From: Natrinema salifodinae
Lineage (GTDB): Archaea; Halobacteriota; Halobacteria; Halobacteriales; Natrialbaceae
Assembly (NCBI RefSeq): GCF_900110455.1
Contig: NZ_FOIS01000001.1
Span: 744,001 to 808,000, forward strand
Reading direction: 5' to 3'
DNA: 64,000 bases
Below, piece by piece: positions 57,030 through 64,000 of the stretch. The first letter of the stretch is position 1, and each line of letters starts with the position of its first letter. The position numbers and the translations under genes were made by a program. The notes beneath the pieces are model-generated. The model worked only from the letters and a program-made list of their open reading frames with translations, had not been told where the DNA came from and searched no databases.

Positions 57030-57173
57030 CGACGATTGGACGACGATTGGACGACAGGATACCGCCGTCCGCGGTCGCCCGCCGATGGCCGCAGCCGCGC
57101 GTGTAGAGATTTCCCATGGAATTCTCTCCCCGGCCTGTTAGATATATGCCACCGGTTACCATATTGGAGTGGT

Positions 57174-58517
57174 ATGTTAGATGTCCGCACGGGTGGGAGC
57201 GCCGGACCGCAGCGATCGCGGCTCGGCGCAGTCGGCCGCCTGGTCGGTGCGATCCCGCTGCCCCGTGGTGTCGATCGGACTCCGGTACCAGTGTCGTCGC
57301 GACCCGCCGTCGGGTCTCATCGCTCGGTTCGACGAGTCCTCGGCTGTTTCCTGCTGATCGCAATGCTCGTCGTCGCGGTCCCCGTCGCCCCGGCGTTCGC
57401 ACAGGACGACGGCGACCCAGACGACGATGACGCAGCGGAGAGCGAGGGCGGTCTCGAGGGAGCGATCGAAGGCGTCGTCGAGGAACAGGGCACGATCGGC
57501 GCGATACTCGCGCTCGTGCTGGGTGGGGTCTTGCTGACGGTCTGCGTCGAGAAACTGATTAACTACCTCACTCGAGCGGCGCTCGGGCTACAGATCTCGC
57601 TGTTCACCCTCGCGATCCTCTTTACGGGAATCGAGTTCGACGATACGGTCCTGGCGCTGGTCCTCTCGGCGGGCGACCTCGAGGGGGCGGCGCTCGGAAC
57701 GGCGCTGGGCACCGGCCTGGCGATCGTCGGCGTGACGCTGGCGCTCGCCGCGATCGTCACGCCGTTCCCGGTCGATCTCCCGTCCGATTACGTCGCCCTC
57801 TTCGCGATCGCGCCGGTGTTGCTCGTCCCGTTCGTCCTCTGGGGAACGTTGACGGTCGTCCACGGCCTCGTGCTCCTCGTCGCGTTCGTCCTCATGTTCG
57901 GTTACATCGTCGTTCGCGAGTATCATCGCGACGTGCCCGTCTTCCGAAATTCCGAACTCGGCCGGCGGGTTCAACCCGACGGCGGCGTGGCCCTGCCCGA
58001 GTCGGTCGCCGACATCCCCGAAGACCGCTTCGTCACCGGTCGGTCGACGGCGGGACTGATCTGGATCTCGCTCTCCGTCGTCGCGCTGGCCGGAATCGTG
58101 TTCGCGTCGATGCTGCTCGAGGCGGGATCGGAGGTCGTCGTCGACGGGTTCGGGATCGAGGAGACCGTCTTCGGCGCGACCGTCCTGACGGTGATCCTCA
58201 CGTTCGAGGACGTCATGCTGACGATCGAACCGGTCCGCCGGGGCGTCCCGGAGATCGGCGTCGGGAACGTCATCGGGAGCGTCCTCTTCTCGGTGACCGG
58301 CAACGTCGGCGTCATCATGCTCGTCAGCGACCTCGAGATCTCGCGGGCCGTCCTGCTGTTTCACCTCCCGACGGTGGTCGTCGTGACCGCCCTGGCCGCG
58401 TACTTCCTCTCCCGGGGCCAGCTGGAGCGGCGCCACGGCTACCTCCTCGGGGGGCTCTACGTCGCTTACTGGCTGCTCGCGATCCTCGTGTTCGGCGGCG
58501 TTCCCATCGGCGGGTGA
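57174..58517 (+). CDS. Sodium/calcium exchanger family membrane protein (CaCA)
   Basis: 447 residues from the ATG at 57174. An A/T box ATATA at 57142-57146, 28-32 nt upstream, supports this start despite a long ~60-residue region before a signal-like stretch (FLLIAMLVVAVPVAPAFA). About ten helices form two CaCA repeats. The second repeat is FGATVLTVILTFEDVMLTIEP followed by GVGNVIGSVLFSVTGNVG. The first repeat (SLFTLAILFTGIEFDDTVLALVLSAGD) has lost the usual acidic/Asn ion motif. The ion is probably Ca2+ or Na+ but is unproven. Confidence 0.78.
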   Translation: MLDVRTGGSAGPQRSRLGAVGRLVGAIPLPRGVDRTPVPVSSRPAVGSHRSVRRVLGCFLLIAMLVVAVPVAPAFAQDDGDPDDDDAAESEGGLEGAIEGVVEEQGTIGAILALVLGGVLLTVCVEKLINYLTRAALGLQISLFTLAILFTGIEFDDTVLALVLSAGDLEGAALGTALGTGLAIVGVTLALAAIVTPFPVDLPSDYVALFAIAPVLLVPFVLWGTLTVVHGLVLLVAFVLMFGYIVVREYHRDVPVFRNSELGRRVQPDGGVALPESVADIPEDRFVTGRSTAGLIWISLSVVALAGIVFASMLLEAGSEVVVDGFGIEETVFGATVLTVILTFEDVMLTIEPVRRGVPEIGVGNVIGSVLFSVTGNVGVIMLVSDLEISRAVLLFHLPTVVVVTALAAYFLSRGQLERRHGYLLGGLYVAYWLLAILVFGGVPIGG

Positions 58518-58598: not shown

Positions 58599-59747
58599 AT
58601 GGTCGGGCCGAGTTCCACGCTGGCGCTGGTCGCCCTGTTCCTCGTCGGCGTCGTTCTGGTGATCTGGTGCGTCGAGGTCTTCATCGAGGCCGTCGCCCAC
58701 AGCGCCGTCTCGCTCGGGATCTCCGGCTTCTTCCTCGCGGTCGTGCTGGCCGGCGTCGACCTCGAGAACGCCGTGCTCGGAGTGACCGCGGCGTTCGTCG
58801 AACTCCCCGACCTCGCGCTCGGGACGGTGTTCGGCGAGTCGCTGTTCGTCCTCGCCGTCGCGGTCGGCCTGGCGGGAATTCTCGTTCCCTTCCGGACGAA
58901 CGTCCCTCGCGTCTATCTGCTCATGCTCGTCCTCGCACCCGTTCCGGCGTTCGCGCTGTCGCTGGAGGGAACGATCGAGCTGCGCGAGGGGGCGGCGCTG
59001 GTCGCCCTGTTCGTCCCGCTGCTGGCGGGGATCTTCTGGCACGAGCGCCGCTCGGAGACGACGTTCCTGCTCTCGGGGGAGGTCCAGGAGGTCGTCGACT
59101 TCGACCCCGAACCGGACGCCGAATCCCGGGCCGCGTCCGGATCCGCGCTCGAATCGGGCGCGGAGGCGGCCGACGGCGGCGAACGGGCGACTCGATCCGA
59201 AGACGCGGAAGCAAAACCGGAAGCAGGGGAGGACGGACCAGAAGAGGGTCTCGACCTAGATCTGGACCTCGACCTCGACGAACTCGTCCCCTCGTTCGAG
59301 AACCGCAGCGGCCTCTTCGCCCTCGGCGTGGCCGTCCTCGCGGTCGTCGGCATGACCGTCGGCTCGGGCATCACGGTCTACAGCGCCGAAGGCATCTTCG
59401 TCGCCTTCGGCATCTCCGGCCTGGCCTTCGGCGCAACCGTGTTGAGCTTCATCGCCTCGATCGAGGAGCTGGCGCTGACCGTCGAACCGGTCCGACAGCA
59501 CCGCCCGGAGCTCGCCGTCGGGAACGTCGTCGGCAGCACGGTCTTCTACATGACCGCGAACGTCGGGCTCATCGCGTTGCTCCACCCCGTCAGTACCGGC
59601 GGCGACGTTCTAACAGTTCACTGGCCCTTCTTCGCCGCCGGCCTGGTCGTCGTGACGGTCATGCTCGCGCGGGGGAAGGTGACTCGCGTCGGCGGCGTCG
59701 TCCTGTTCGGCCTGTACCTGGCGTACTGGGTAGCGAACTACCTGTAG
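58599..59747 (+). CDS. Second sodium/calcium exchanger family protein (CaCA)
   Basis: 382 residues, directly after the first exchanger (81 bp). The N-terminal repeat reads GISGFFLAVVLAGVDLENAVLG then VTAAFVELPDLALGTVFGESLF. The C-terminal repeat is FGATVLSFIASIEELALTVEP followed by AVGNVVGSTVFYMTANVG. Both differ from canonical alpha repeats in the same positions as the upstream gene, so the pair looks like one subfamily. A long cytosolic loop holds a run of alternating Asp-Leu residues (DLDLDLDLDLDEL), a possible Ca2+ or regulatory element. Confidence 0.82.
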   Translation: MVGPSSTLALVALFLVGVVLVIWCVEVFIEAVAHSAVSLGISGFFLAVVLAGVDLENAVLGVTAAFVELPDLALGTVFGESLFVLAVAVGLAGILVPFRTNVPRVYLLMLVLAPVPAFALSLEGTIELREGAALVALFVPLLAGIFWHERRSETTFLLSGEVQEVVDFDPEPDAESRAASGSALESGAEAADGGERATRSEDAEAKPEAGEDGPEEGLDLDLDLDLDELVPSFENRSGLFALGVAVLAVVGMTVGSGITVYSAEGIFVAFGISGLAFGATVLSFIASIEELALTVEPVRQHRPELAVGNVVGSTVFYMTANVGLIALLHPVSTGGDVLTVHWPFFAAGLVVVTVMLARGKVTRVGGVVLFGLYLAYWVANYL

Positions 59748-59881: not shown

Positions 59882-60319
59882 TTACCGTGACCCGGCGCCC
59901 GACAGTTCGTCGAACAACGACGCGACCCGGGCCTCGATCTCGTCGCGGATTTCCCGACCGGTCTCGAGGTCTGCCCCGTGCGGGTCGTCGAGATTCCAAT
60001 CGCGGTTGTCCCCGCTCCAGGTGGCCGGACAGACGCCGTCCGCCGAACAGCCCATCGTAATCACGTAGTCGCAGTCCCGAAGGTCGTCGGGGGTGATTTC
60101 CCGCGGCGTTCGATCACGTAGGTCGATGGCTTCCTCTCGCATGACGTCGACGACGACGTCGTGAACGGAATCGGCTGGCCTGGTGCCGCCGGTCACGATC
60201 TCGACGGAGTCGGTCAGCGCTCGAGCGTCACGCTCGCGCTTGGCGAACGCGGCTGCCATCTGGGACCGCCCGGCGTTTTGTACGCAGACGAAGGCGATGC
60301 GCGTGGGAGTATCGCTCAT
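59882..60319 (-). CDS. Low-molecular-weight phosphatase / ArsC-type arsenate reductase family
   Basis: 145 residues. The signature CVQNAGRS (Cys12 to Arg18) is the phosphate-binding loop. MGCSADGVCPATW and DWNLDDPHGAD are the ArsC-type second-Cys and Asp loops. This arrangement is that of thioredoxin-type arsenate reductases. It may reduce arsenate or dephosphorylate a protein; no arsB or arsM is near. It converges with the exchanger pair. Confidence 0.88.
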   Translation of the reverse strand: MSDTPTRIAFVCVQNAGRSQMAAAFAKRERDARALTDSVEIVTGGTRPADSVHDVVVDVMREEAIDLRDRTPREITPDDLRDCDYVITMGCSADGVCPATWSGDNRDWNLDDPHGADLETGREIRDEIEARVASLFDELSGAGSR

Positions 60320-60762: not shown

Positions 60763-62181
60763 CTACTCTTCTCCCCCGCCGCGCCGAAGCGACGACCCGT
60801 CGAACGCCATCGAGAGATCGTCCGCGATCCCGAGCAGATCCGCGATCGTCGGTGCCACGTCCGTCGCGTCGACCGGGCCGTCGCCATCGAACGCGGGTGC
60901 GGCCGGGCCGCCGAGGCCGAAACAACCGAACGCCGACTCGTCGACCCGGCCGTGGGAGCCGCCGACCTTCGACGCGTCCAGCGACACCAGGCCGTCGTCG
61001 CCGAAGAACAGCTCGCAGGGATCGAAGCCCGGCTTCTCGTGAATGTCCATGTCGGTCGCGTACGGCGGCGCGTTTTCGCGGTCGTCCCACCAGTAGTACT
61101 GGAACCAGGCGTCGGGCTCGGCGACGAGGACGAGGTCGCCCGCGTTGGGGTGGTCGATCTCGCGCTCGGCCTTGCCCGCGTCGTTGAGGACGGCGTCGAT
61201 CCCCTCGAGAGCCGCGAGGGCTTCGCGGGCGGCGTCGAGCGAGCCGTCGTCGGCGTAAACGTGGGCGATCTGGTGGTCGACCATGGCGAACGCGTCCGAG
61301 CCGGCGATGTCGACGTCGCCTTCGGCGTCCGTCTCGAGCAGGCCGGCCTGGCGGAGCGCGCGGTTGGGGAACACCGGTCGGTCGACGTCGTGGAAGCCGT
61401 ACTCGCTGACCAGCGCGAGGACGGTCTCGTCCCAGCGGTCGGTCTCGGCCAGATCGTCGAGGAAGTCCGCGAGGAGGTCGTCGACGGTCTCTAGTTCCGC
61501 CGCGAAGGCGTCGCTCTCGGGGCCGTCGCTCTGGCCGACGTAGTCCAGATGCGGGACGTAGATCCACAGCAGATCGGGGTCGAAGCGGTCGATCGCCTTG
61601 CGCGCGGCCGCGAGAATCCAACGGGATCCCTCCTCGTTCGCGCCCGGGCCCCAGTAGTTGTGGAGGGGGAAGTGGTTCAGGTCCGCCCGGAGATCGTCGT
61701 AGAAGCCGTCGGGGTTGGTCCAGCAGTTCATCTCGAGGATGTTGTTGTCCTCGTCCTCGATCGGCGAGGGCGTGACCGCGACGTCGGCGCTCGTGCCGAT
61801 CAGGTGCTGGAAGTTCAGGACGCCGGTGGTTAGCCCCGCCCGGTCGCTTGCGGTTTCCCAGAGGCGCTCGCGGCCGTCGCGGTCGCGCTCCCAGAACTCG
61901 GCGACCTGCCGCTCGCGGTCGAACTCACCGCTGGAGACGTCGCCGTGAGACGCGGGGCCGCGCCCGGTCGCGAGGGTCGTCTGGGATGGGACTGTCAGGG
62001 CGGGAAACGGCGGTTGGAGGTCGGTTACGGCGTCGCTCGGAAACAGCGATTCGAGCGTCGGCGTCCGCTCGGCGTCGACGTGCTCGGGTTGCAGGCCGAC
62101 GACGTCGAGGACGATCACGCGGTCGGGCGTCTCGGTCGGGTCGGCGATCGTGGGATCGGAGTCGGGATCGGGATCGGACAT
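60763..62181 (-). CDS. Alkaline-phosphatase-superfamily phosphodiesterase/nucleotide pyrophosphatase (EboF-like)
   Basis: 472 residues. A phosphodiesterase-like core begins VIVLDVVGLQPEHVDAERTP then TVPSQTTLATGRGPASHG (catalytic Thr and metal site). YVPHLDYVGQSDGPES, VSEYGFHDVD and VGGSHGRVDES carry further metal ligands (Asp/His). It is the type I nucleotide-pyrophosphatase-like arrangement. It follows the inositol-phosphate-synthase-like gene by 16 bp on the same strand, so the two are an operon. This pairing recalls the phosphatase of ebo clusters. Confidence 0.8.
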   Translation of the reverse strand: MSDPDPDSDPTIADPTETPDRVIVLDVVGLQPEHVDAERTPTLESLFPSDAVTDLQPPFPALTVPSQTTLATGRGPASHGDVSSGEFDRERQVAEFWERDRDGRERLWETASDRAGLTTGVLNFQHLIGTSADVAVTPSPIEDEDNNILEMNCWTNPDGFYDDLRADLNHFPLHNYWGPGANEEGSRWILAAARKAIDRFDPDLLWIYVPHLDYVGQSDGPESDAFAAELETVDDLLADFLDDLAETDRWDETVLALVSEYGFHDVDRPVFPNRALRQAGLLETDAEGDVDIAGSDAFAMVDHQIAHVYADDGSLDAAREALAALEGIDAVLNDAGKAEREIDHPNAGDLVLVAEPDAWFQYYWWDDRENAPPYATDMDIHEKPGFDPCELFFGDDGLVSLDASKVGGSHGRVDESAFGCFGLGGPAAPAFDGDGPVDATDVAPTIADLLGIADDLSMAFDGSSLRRGGGEE

Positions 62182-62197
62182 GGCTTCGCGGTGAGAG

Positions 62198-63412
62198 TCA
62201 GCTGTGTCGGTCGGCGTAGTCGTACAGGCGATCCAACTGTCGGGAGAAGTCGTGCTCGTCGACCCCGAGCGGGGCCTTGAAGAACGAGGCCAGCTGCGGC
62301 TGGAGTCCGCCCGAACCGTGCTCGTCGGCGTGAGCGATCAGCCGCACGAGGTCGAGCACGAGCGGCGCGGCCAGCGCGGAGTCCGAACCCTCCCAGGTGA
62401 ACTGCATCTTCATCTCGGTGTTCAGAAAGCCCCGGAAATGGACGTAGTCCCACGCGGTCTTCCAGTCGGCCAACGAGGGCGTGTAGTCGATCCGGACCCG
62501 GCTGTGGCCGATGTCGGGGAGGATCGAGTCGAGCACGTCGCCCTTGCTCGCGAGCTTGCCCGCGGCGTTTTCCTCGTCCTCGAGCACGAGCCCGTCCTCG
62601 TTGCCGAGGATGTTGTGCCCCTCCCAGCTCATGACGTGCAGGTTTCGGCCGGCGAACATGGGCGCGAGCGCCGACTTGACGAGCGTCTCGCCGGTCTTCG
62701 CGTCCCGGCCCGTGTGCGGGACCGACTCCTCGACGGCGAGTTCGCGCAGGCCGCCGAGCGCATTGCCGGTACTCGGCGTGAAGTTGACGAACGGGTGGCC
62801 GGCCGTCATCGCGGCGGAGGCGTAGAGGACGCTGGCCGGCAGATCGCGGTCGTCCTCGTCGATCGCGCGTTCGAGCGCGTCGCGGGTGTCGTACCGTTCC
62901 GGGTCCGCTAACTCGGGCTCCGTCGAGGCGACGTTGACGACCACGAGCCGATCGAGGTCGCGGCGCTCGCGGAACCGCTCGTAGTCGTCGCGGATCAGGT
63001 TGACGACGTCCCGGATCGCCAGGCTCTCGTCCACTTGCTCGCTGTCCGCTGAGACGGCGGCCCCGCAGTTGACCGCCGTCCCGACTTCGATCCGCTCGTC
63101 GATCTCGGCCAGATCCTCCCGGACGGCGTCGAGGGTCTCGCCGTCGGGGACGCCGTTGCGGTCGCGCTGGCGCTCGGCCCGGTCGACGAGCGATTCCGGT
63201 GCGATGTCGTGGCCGCCGAAGACGAAGCCGTCGACCGGCGGGAGGTCGAGGCTCGCGACCGGTTCCCGGGCCGTGACCATGCCGGTCTCACCGGTTACGC
63301 CCCGCGCGATGGCGCGGGCGCCGACGATCGCCATCGTCGCGACGTTCCCCCGGGCGCCGATGAGCCAGACGCCGGTCCGCCGGTCGGCCTCGCGCTCGGT
63401 CTCCCGGTTCAT
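62198..63412 (-). CDS. Myo-inositol-1-phosphate synthase-like protein
   Basis: 404 residues. The NAD-binding GVWLIGARGNVATMAIVGARA opens the chain. NVASTEPELADPERYDT, FVNFTPSTGNA, DAKTGETLVKSALAPMF and SWEGHNILGNEDGLVL match inositol-3-phosphate synthase. It would convert glucose 6-phosphate to inositol 3-phosphate, or act on a related sugar phosphate. It is 16 bp before the phosphatase and diverges from the TatD-like gene, 312 bp away, which suggests joint control. Confidence 0.85.
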   Translation of the reverse strand: MNRETEREADRRTGVWLIGARGNVATMAIVGARAIARGVTGETGMVTAREPVASLDLPPVDGFVFGGHDIAPESLVDRAERQRDRNGVPDGETLDAVREDLAEIDERIEVGTAVNCGAAVSADSEQVDESLAIRDVVNLIRDDYERFRERRDLDRLVVVNVASTEPELADPERYDTRDALERAIDEDDRDLPASVLYASAAMTAGHPFVNFTPSTGNALGGLRELAVEESVPHTGRDAKTGETLVKSALAPMFAGRNLHVMSWEGHNILGNEDGLVLEDEENAAGKLASKGDVLDSILPDIGHSRVRIDYTPSLADWKTAWDYVHFRGFLNTEMKMQFTWEGSDSALAAPLVLDLVRLIAHADEHGSGGLQPQLASFFKAPLGVDEHDFSRQLDRLYDYADRHS

Positions 63413-63724
63413 CGGGAATCAGCCCGCCTGGCCGGGCCGCCGTGGTGAGACTTCGGCGCGGTTCGTCCGCCGAGGCCGTCGGGCTCGGCCGGCGGCGGAC
63501 GCGCCACTCTCGTCGCGCGGTCGATACGAGTCATTCCAGCGTGAGTCGTGACCGGACGGGTTTCGTTATGACTCGCGTAGCGGAAGTAAAGCCGTATTGC
63601 CCCCTCACAACGGAGTATAACACCGTATTCCGCGGTCGGAACTGCCCTCACCCCCGCTTTCAATGACACGTTTGCCTGTCGAACGACCGGCACCCCCAAG
63701 CCCGCTGCCGGTGGGTCGGCCACT
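63413..63724. other. Divergent promoter region
   Basis: The 312 bp hold no supported gene. A/T-rich spots (ATAACACC near 63617 and TTCCG neighbours) may be TATA elements for the two divergent gene starts at 63412 and 63725. Confidence 0.4.
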
Positions 63725-64000
63725 ATGCGAATTATCGATCCTCACATGCACATGATCTCGCGCTCGGCCGAAGACTATCGGCGAGCGCGACGTGCGGGCA
63801 TCGAGTGCTGTATCGAGCCCGCGTTCTGGAGCGGCCAGGACAAGCGCCACGCGGGATCGTTCTTCGACTACTTCGAGCAGATAATCGACCACGAGACCGA
63901 CCGCGCCGAGCGCGCGGCCGGGATGGACCACTACGTCACGATCGGCCTCGAACCGAAGGAGGCCAACTACCGCGACATGGCCGAGGAGGTCGTCGACCGG
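63725..64000 (+). CDS. TatD-like metal-dependent hydrolase, 5' part (EboB-like)
   Basis: The first 92 codons, cut by the right edge. Reads MRIIDPHMHMISRSAEDYRR with the HxH metal pair of the amidohydrolase/TatD barrel, then GIECCIEPAFW and a second region DHYVTIGLEPKEANYRD. The gene diverges from the inositol-phosphate-synthase-like gene. In ebo-type clusters a TatD-like hydrolase of this form stands near a phosphatase and a UbiA gene, which supports the assignment, but the rest is outside the window. Confidence 0.75.
   Translation, partial: MRIIDPHMHMISRSAEDYRRARRAGIECCIEPAFWSGQDKRHAGSFFDYFEQIIDHETDRAERAAGMDHYVTIGLEPKEANYRDMAEEVVDR

Follow-up and report, generated by a model that had tools for sequence, protein, structure and literature searches.

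The right-hand end of a 64,000-nt stretch of the Natrinema salifodinae genome (the window; C1:744001-808000 of 4.27 Mb) raises the question of why a gene for myo-inositol-1-phosphate synthase (MIPS) stands among genes resembling those of bacterial ebo operons, and what such a cluster might make. A sequence-only reading of the window had placed the edge of an ebo-like cluster here, with a phosphodiesterase-like and a MIPS-like gene, 16 bp apart, diverging from a TatD-like gene; the coordinates and Pfam matches agreed with this description. On the minus strand, nt 60763–62181 encoded an EboF-like protein of the PF01663 phosphodiesterase/alkaline-phosphatase superfamily (472 aa; 170.7 bits) with altered metal-ligand positions, and nt 62198–63412 encoded MIPS (404 aa; PF07994, 157 bits; PF01658, 111 bits), a single-copy gene and the only PF07994 match of the genome. 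A divergent intergenic region of 312 bp (nt 63413–63724) separated MIPS from a plus-strand gene for a TatD-like amidohydrolase, an EboB orthologue judged by its EboB relatives (nt 63725–64525; PF01026, 70.8 bits), which crossed the window edge at nt 64000. With the reading extended to C1:822000, open reading frames with family matches followed EboB in the same operon past the edge, encoding a PF01261 TIM barrel (TIM barrel 1, nt 64528–65358), an EboC-like UbiA (nt 65360–66367; NF035940, E = 1.8e-59) and a second PF01261 TIM barrel (TIM barrel 2, nt 66481–67329). The locus consists of two divergent operons, EboF with MIPS and EboB with a TIM barrel, an EboC-type UbiA and another TIM barrel. The UbiA- and xylose-isomerase-like genes that the sequence-only reading had sought beyond nt 64000 were present, whereas EboA and a dehydroquinate-synthase-like gene were not found up to C1:822000; its worry that the downstream genes might be unrelated proved groundless, as UbiA and the TIM barrels completed the EboB operon.

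Sequence comparison establishes to which families the proteins belong, that the gene arrangement is conserved, that MIPS almost always occurs together with EboB, that MIPS and EboD exclude each other, and that haloarchaeal MIPS groups with the MIPS of actinobacterial ebo clusters. The haloarchaeal cluster is almost certainly homologous to ebo, and the interpretation that we favour by a modest measure, its product included, is that of a MIPS-type ebo variant building a prenylated cyclitol.

The TatD-like protein shared 39–47% identity over its full length with bacterial EboB. A search of 72,556 plasmid records with it returned 4 haloarchaeal and then 47 bacterial matches, followed by three other haloarchaeal TatD proteins at 25–28%; the TatD nuclease model TIGR00010 gave 44 bits (cut-off, 206). 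The distance separating EboB-type proteins from the other TatD proteins of archaea ruled out a true TatD nuclease, and by similarity the protein is assigned as the EboB orthologue. The EboB alignment retained HxH, E107, H138, H169 and D218, which we take to be the places where the ligands of a TatD-type metal site would lie. For UbiA, in which the NDxxDxxxD and YDxxxK motifs were intact, the best NCBIfam match was EboC, covering the full model (201.5 bits; curated cut-off, 250), ahead of the SCO3242 prenyltransferase family (152.5 bits; cut-off, 260), the family of the actinobacterial prenyltransferase; both scores lie under the cut-offs, and the better of the two is that to EboC. The two TIM barrels were similar to one another and to the isomerase-like protein of actinobacterial ebo clusters; their best NCBIfam relatives were the fructoselysine 3-epimerase and 5-keto-L-gluconate epimerase models, with scores far under the cut-offs. 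The TIM-barrel isomerase member that had been expected, EboE, was thus represented by barrels of a neighbouring family only, with 23–26 bits to the EboE model NF035939 (cut-off, 250), and EboE proper was not found in the haloarchaeal loci. Neither this locus nor 21 haloarchaeal loci contained EboD, a dehydroquinate-synthase-like protein, and no convincing EboA/EboG match was observed in haloarchaeal loci; genome searches for EboD and EboA, run without a positive control, were empty.

The EboF-like protein was 33–41% identical to bacterial EboF, and both had the same family-specific altered metal positions. We assume the canonical two-zinc residues of nucleotide pyrophosphatase/phosphodiesterases to be D54, T90, D210, H214, D257, H258 and H363 (XaNPP numbering), all mapped through a profile alignment except H363, which was placed by the family alignment only. 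All 89 EboF sequences retained counterparts of three of the seven (T90, D210 and H363). The other four were altered in essentially every sequence, with V (I or A in three) at the place of D54, Q or L at H214, E at D257 and Y at H258; the altered zinc-ligand positions were common to EboF of all ebo variants. With these ligands lost, the standard two-zinc phosphodiesterase reaction is unlikely for EboF, and the phosphate-hydrolase role suggested for it (PMC5133447, section 3.4.3) appears doubtful; the protein may be a pseudoenzyme or may catalyse a new kind of reaction.

The MIPS, in turn, was homologous over its full length to the Archaeoglobus fulgidus enzyme (PDB 1u1i; E = 6e-85), and D225, N255, D261, K274, K278, K306, D332 and K367 (A. 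fulgidus numbering) were invariant throughout the alignment, which suggests that it is catalytically competent. The Archaeoglobus enzyme, identical at these eight active-site residues, belongs to a separate branch of the MIPS tree: in a quick search, haloarchaeal MIPS joined actinobacterial ebo MIPS (96 in the Shimodaira-Hasegawa-like approximate likelihood ratio test, SH-aLRT), and MIPS of Archaeoglobaceae, including one row identical to the solved enzyme, and of other archaea fell outside this group. The Archaeoglobus gene is not known here to be part of an ebo cluster. The EboC, EboB and EboF trees left the haloarchaeal sister group unsettled, only MIPS giving a starred grouping in the quick search.

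The 13 of 145 Halobacteria genomes in which EboC was strongly matched were the same 13 that matched the window MIPS. In 386 Halobacteria genomes, EboB was present in 55 and MIPS in 52, with both in 50, EboB only in five and MIPS only in two (Fisher p = 1.8e-54, shared ancestry ignored); the two genes were no more than 6 kb apart in 44 of the 50 genomes having both, and in six genomes MIPS lay away from the EboB cluster. The layout EboF-MIPS/EboB-TIM barrel 1-UbiA-TIM barrel 2 was recurrent, with TIM barrel 2 displaced in a few genomes and the cluster split in one genome read. Because most haloarchaeal genomes carrying the cluster have it in this full layout, the arrangement is not due to chance, and the TatD gene does not stand alone in relatives, the other way in which the sequence-only reading might have failed. 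Alignment of five haloarchaeal MIPS/EboB intergenic regions showed a well-conserved block at about nt 63561–63589 (TTTCGTTATG..CGTAG....GTAA), a possible promoter/operator. Two damaged MIPS genes were also observed: an EboB-adjacent copy split into two frames (G591:C12:438857-439832), with an intact copy on another contig, and a copy with an internal stop in an EboB-less genome (G527:C1:2810738-2811934); they suggest decay when the gene is not needed. In non-haloarchaeal members of the phylum, EboB-like TatD proteins scored 140–186 bits and were not counted as ebo; none of nine such loci, one of which (L168) spans 3 kb only and gives little neighbour information, had EboC, EboF or MIPS as a neighbour or a strong TIM-barrel match.

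Ebo loci, drawn from an EboB alignment over species-representative genomes and from plasmids, were classified with profiles. MIPS was found in 63 (45 bacterial and 18 haloarchaeal, the latter including the relabelled contig L086), EboD in 27, and both in none; the plasmid match lists showed the same exclusion. Actinobacterial clusters contained MIPS, UbiA, the isomerase and usually EboA, then EboB, EboE and EboF, and EboD-bearing loci were from Pseudomonadota, Bacteroidota, Balneolota, Spirochaetota, Acidobacteriota, Deinococcus and one cyanobacterial plasmid. The junction of a haloarchaeal ebo cluster with an inositol-phosphate synthase, which had been singled out as informative, was therefore real but no haloarchaeal oddity, since actinobacterial clusters carry MIPS in the place of EboD. 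The actinobacterial variant can already be recognised in public annotation, since RefSeq names EboA and EboE in Streptomyces clusters; the haloarchaeal cluster genes bear generic names only. A full-text search, with subscription literature outside it, found no paper linking MIPS to ebo or describing ebo in archaea. Three plasmids of Roseomonas, Hymenobacter and Methylobacterium (L053, L054 and L074) carried another MIPS-containing cluster with no ebo genes, which in the two annotated ones comprised MIPS, a Gfo/Idh/MocA oxidoreductase, a YcaO-like protein and a sugar-phosphate isomerase.

Exchange of the ring-forming enzyme was also indicated within a single cluster. The ebo cluster on plasmid 2 of Gemmatirosa kalamazoonensis (L070) was a mosaic, with MIPS and the isomerase accompanied by an EboG-type gene; its EboB fell beside the EboD-type EboB of Deinococcus in the comparison, and its EboE and EboF were nearest EboD-type proteins. 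Judged by these relationships it is a natural swap of the ring-forming enzyme, which was therefore probably exchanged more than once; at least two changes of enzyme type were needed on the EboB tree. On the EboC tree, one branch divided EboD-type from MIPS-type loci (SH-aLRT about 80), which hints that EboC follows the ring enzyme; grouping Gemmatirosa EboC with the EboD type was nevertheless compatible with the data (p = 0.33, approximately unbiased test).

In comparison with the bacterial operon, known from eustigmatophytes and bacteria and as the EDB cluster of Pseudomonas (PMC5133447, PMC6282210), the haloarchaeal cluster likewise combined EboB, an EboC-type UbiA, EboF and PF01261-type TIM barrels, but had an archaeal host, two divergent operons, and MIPS with two TIM barrels of another subfamily where EboD, EboA/EboG and true EboE were not found. 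Another close counterpart was the actinobacterial MIPS-type cluster (MIPS-SCO3242 prenyltransferase-isomerase-EboA-EboB-EboE-EboF, as in Streptomyces sp. NBC_00376), which shared a related MIPS and isomerase-like TIM barrel replacing EboD, together with relatives of EboB, EboF and UbiA, and differed in keeping EboE, and usually EboA, in one co-directional operon.

An isoprenoid-cyclitol product was proposed from EboD and EboC in the 2016 study that named ebo, with sedoheptulose 7-phosphate suggested as the EboD substrate and inositol not mentioned (PMC5133447). The exchange of EboD for MIPS, as seen in the classified loci, is independent support for the cyclitol, and it adds a six-carbon phosphate to the substrates worth considering. 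In the proposed pathway, MIPS would convert glucose 6-phosphate to myo-inositol phosphate, the ring might then be modified by EboB and by at least one of the two TIM barrels, which belong to an isomerase/epimerase family, and the membrane enzyme EboC would place an isoprenoid chain on the cyclitol to give a membrane-anchored prenyl-cyclitol; the order of the isomerase, hydrolase and prenylation steps after ring formation is likewise putative. In most other bacteria the cyclitol would come from EboD, a sugar-phosphate ring-closing enzyme of an unrelated family. The product could serve as an export helper, as proposed in Nostoc, or be the metabolite itself. By analogy only, in the BE-40644 pathway, the isoprenoid-cyclitol precedent given in PMC5133447, the cyclitol of a sugar-phosphate cyclase is prenylated by a UbiA-superfamily enzyme, although cyclase family and UbiA subgroup are different. 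A more specific product, which we advance tentatively and consider rather doubtful, is an isoprenoid ether of inositol phosphate, with EboC attaching the prenyl chain to a phosphorylated polyol in a manner resembling that of DGGGP synthase in the making of archaeal lipids; it would represent an unrecognised membrane-lipid class common to haloarchaea and actinobacteria, with EboD the functional analogue of MIPS in other bacteria.

Several observations weigh against the prenyl-cyclitol interpretation. The product of MIPS keeps its phosphate and that of an EboD-type enzyme does not; the downstream chemistry may therefore differ, and the two variants may lack a common intermediate. Product, substrate and enzyme activities are all predicted, the UbiA score lies under the curated EboC cut-off, and the MIPS/EboD exclusion counts are confounded by ancestry. 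Exceptions to the pairing were the five EboB-positive Halobacteria genomes without detected MIPS and the two with MIPS but no EboB. In Haloarcula pellucida, in whose draft genome MIPS was not found anywhere, and on a Haladaptatus plasmid, the cluster occurred without MIPS. In some Streptomyces loci and a Lentzea locus the cluster itself contained no MIPS and no EboD; MIPS was present elsewhere in several of these genomes. EboA and EboE, both required for scytonemin export in Nostoc, were absent. The Streptomyces subgroup lacking both ring enzymes inside the cluster (L126, L130, L131, L144 and L157) retained its isomerase.

If MIPS served ordinary membrane lipids by providing the myo-inositol phosphate of archaetidylinositol head groups, only shared regulation would account for its place next to the ebo-like genes. 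A review lists the Haloferax volcanii MIPS, HVO_B0213, under synthesis of polar lipids with inositol head groups (PMC8305020); the six genomes with MIPS apart from EboB and two Halomarina plasmids with MIPS and no ebo genes also fit this idea. The neighbouring locus tag of HVO_B0213 by number, HVO_B0212, is a small zinc-finger protein. Set against it, 334 of the 386 Halobacteria genomes were without such a MIPS, EboB was present in 50 of the 52 having it, and its closest relatives came from actinobacterial ebo clusters and not from other archaea, so a lipid-only role is considered unlikely. Both Halomarina plasmids (L051 and L071) carried the haloarchaeal-type MIPS, which in the annotated L051 stood amid glycosyltransferase genes.

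A membrane complex exporting other metabolites, with no cyclitol end product, would agree with the behaviour of all ebo mutants of Nostoc punctiforme, in which the scytonemin monomer was made but not exported to the periplasm (PMC6282210), with the NCBI name of EboE, metabolite traffic protein, and with the loss of canonical zinc ligands from EboF, which may not be a catalyst. Yet the retained active-site residues of MIPS, metal-site positions of EboB and motifs of UbiA suggest chemistry, the proposed bridging partner EboA was not found in haloarchaeal loci, and haloarchaea have a single membrane and no scytonemin; trafficking by itself is thus regarded as rather improbable, and both ideas may be true if the prenyl-cyclitol is a carrier. 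That the cluster is catabolic, its TIM barrels and EboB degrading inositol-type or uronate sugars and its other genes being incidental, seems very improbable: the TIM barrels are nearest to the two epimerase models, and several copies of the cluster have Gfo/Idh/MocA, isomerase or ABC-transporter genes nearby, but those models are matched far under their cut-offs, MIPS is biosynthetic, UbiA, whose motifs are intact, is a membrane prenyltransferase, and an inositol dehydrogenase or transporter was never a constant member.

Beyond TIM barrel 2, a FAA hydrolase, a metallo-beta-lactamase-fold protein and an Nramp-like transporter were left outside the cluster, there being no reason to include them. 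Upstream in the window, two adjacent plus-strand genes (nt 57036–58517 and 58599–59747) probably encode multi-pass, sodium/calcium-exchanger-like membrane proteins, and a small minus-strand gene (nt 59882–60319) was phosphatase/arsenate-reductase-like, all as judged by eye.

For the prenyl-cyclitol interpretation, replacement of EboD by MIPS, an enzyme with a well-known reaction, would narrow the first steps of a widespread cluster to cyclitol formation and give a defined starting compound. The haloarchaeal version, in which EboA, EboE and EboD were not found, is the smallest natural ebo set seen here, and its hosts are genetically tractable. The link to the cluster also puts in question whether haloarchaeal MIPS serves archaetidylinositol lipids.

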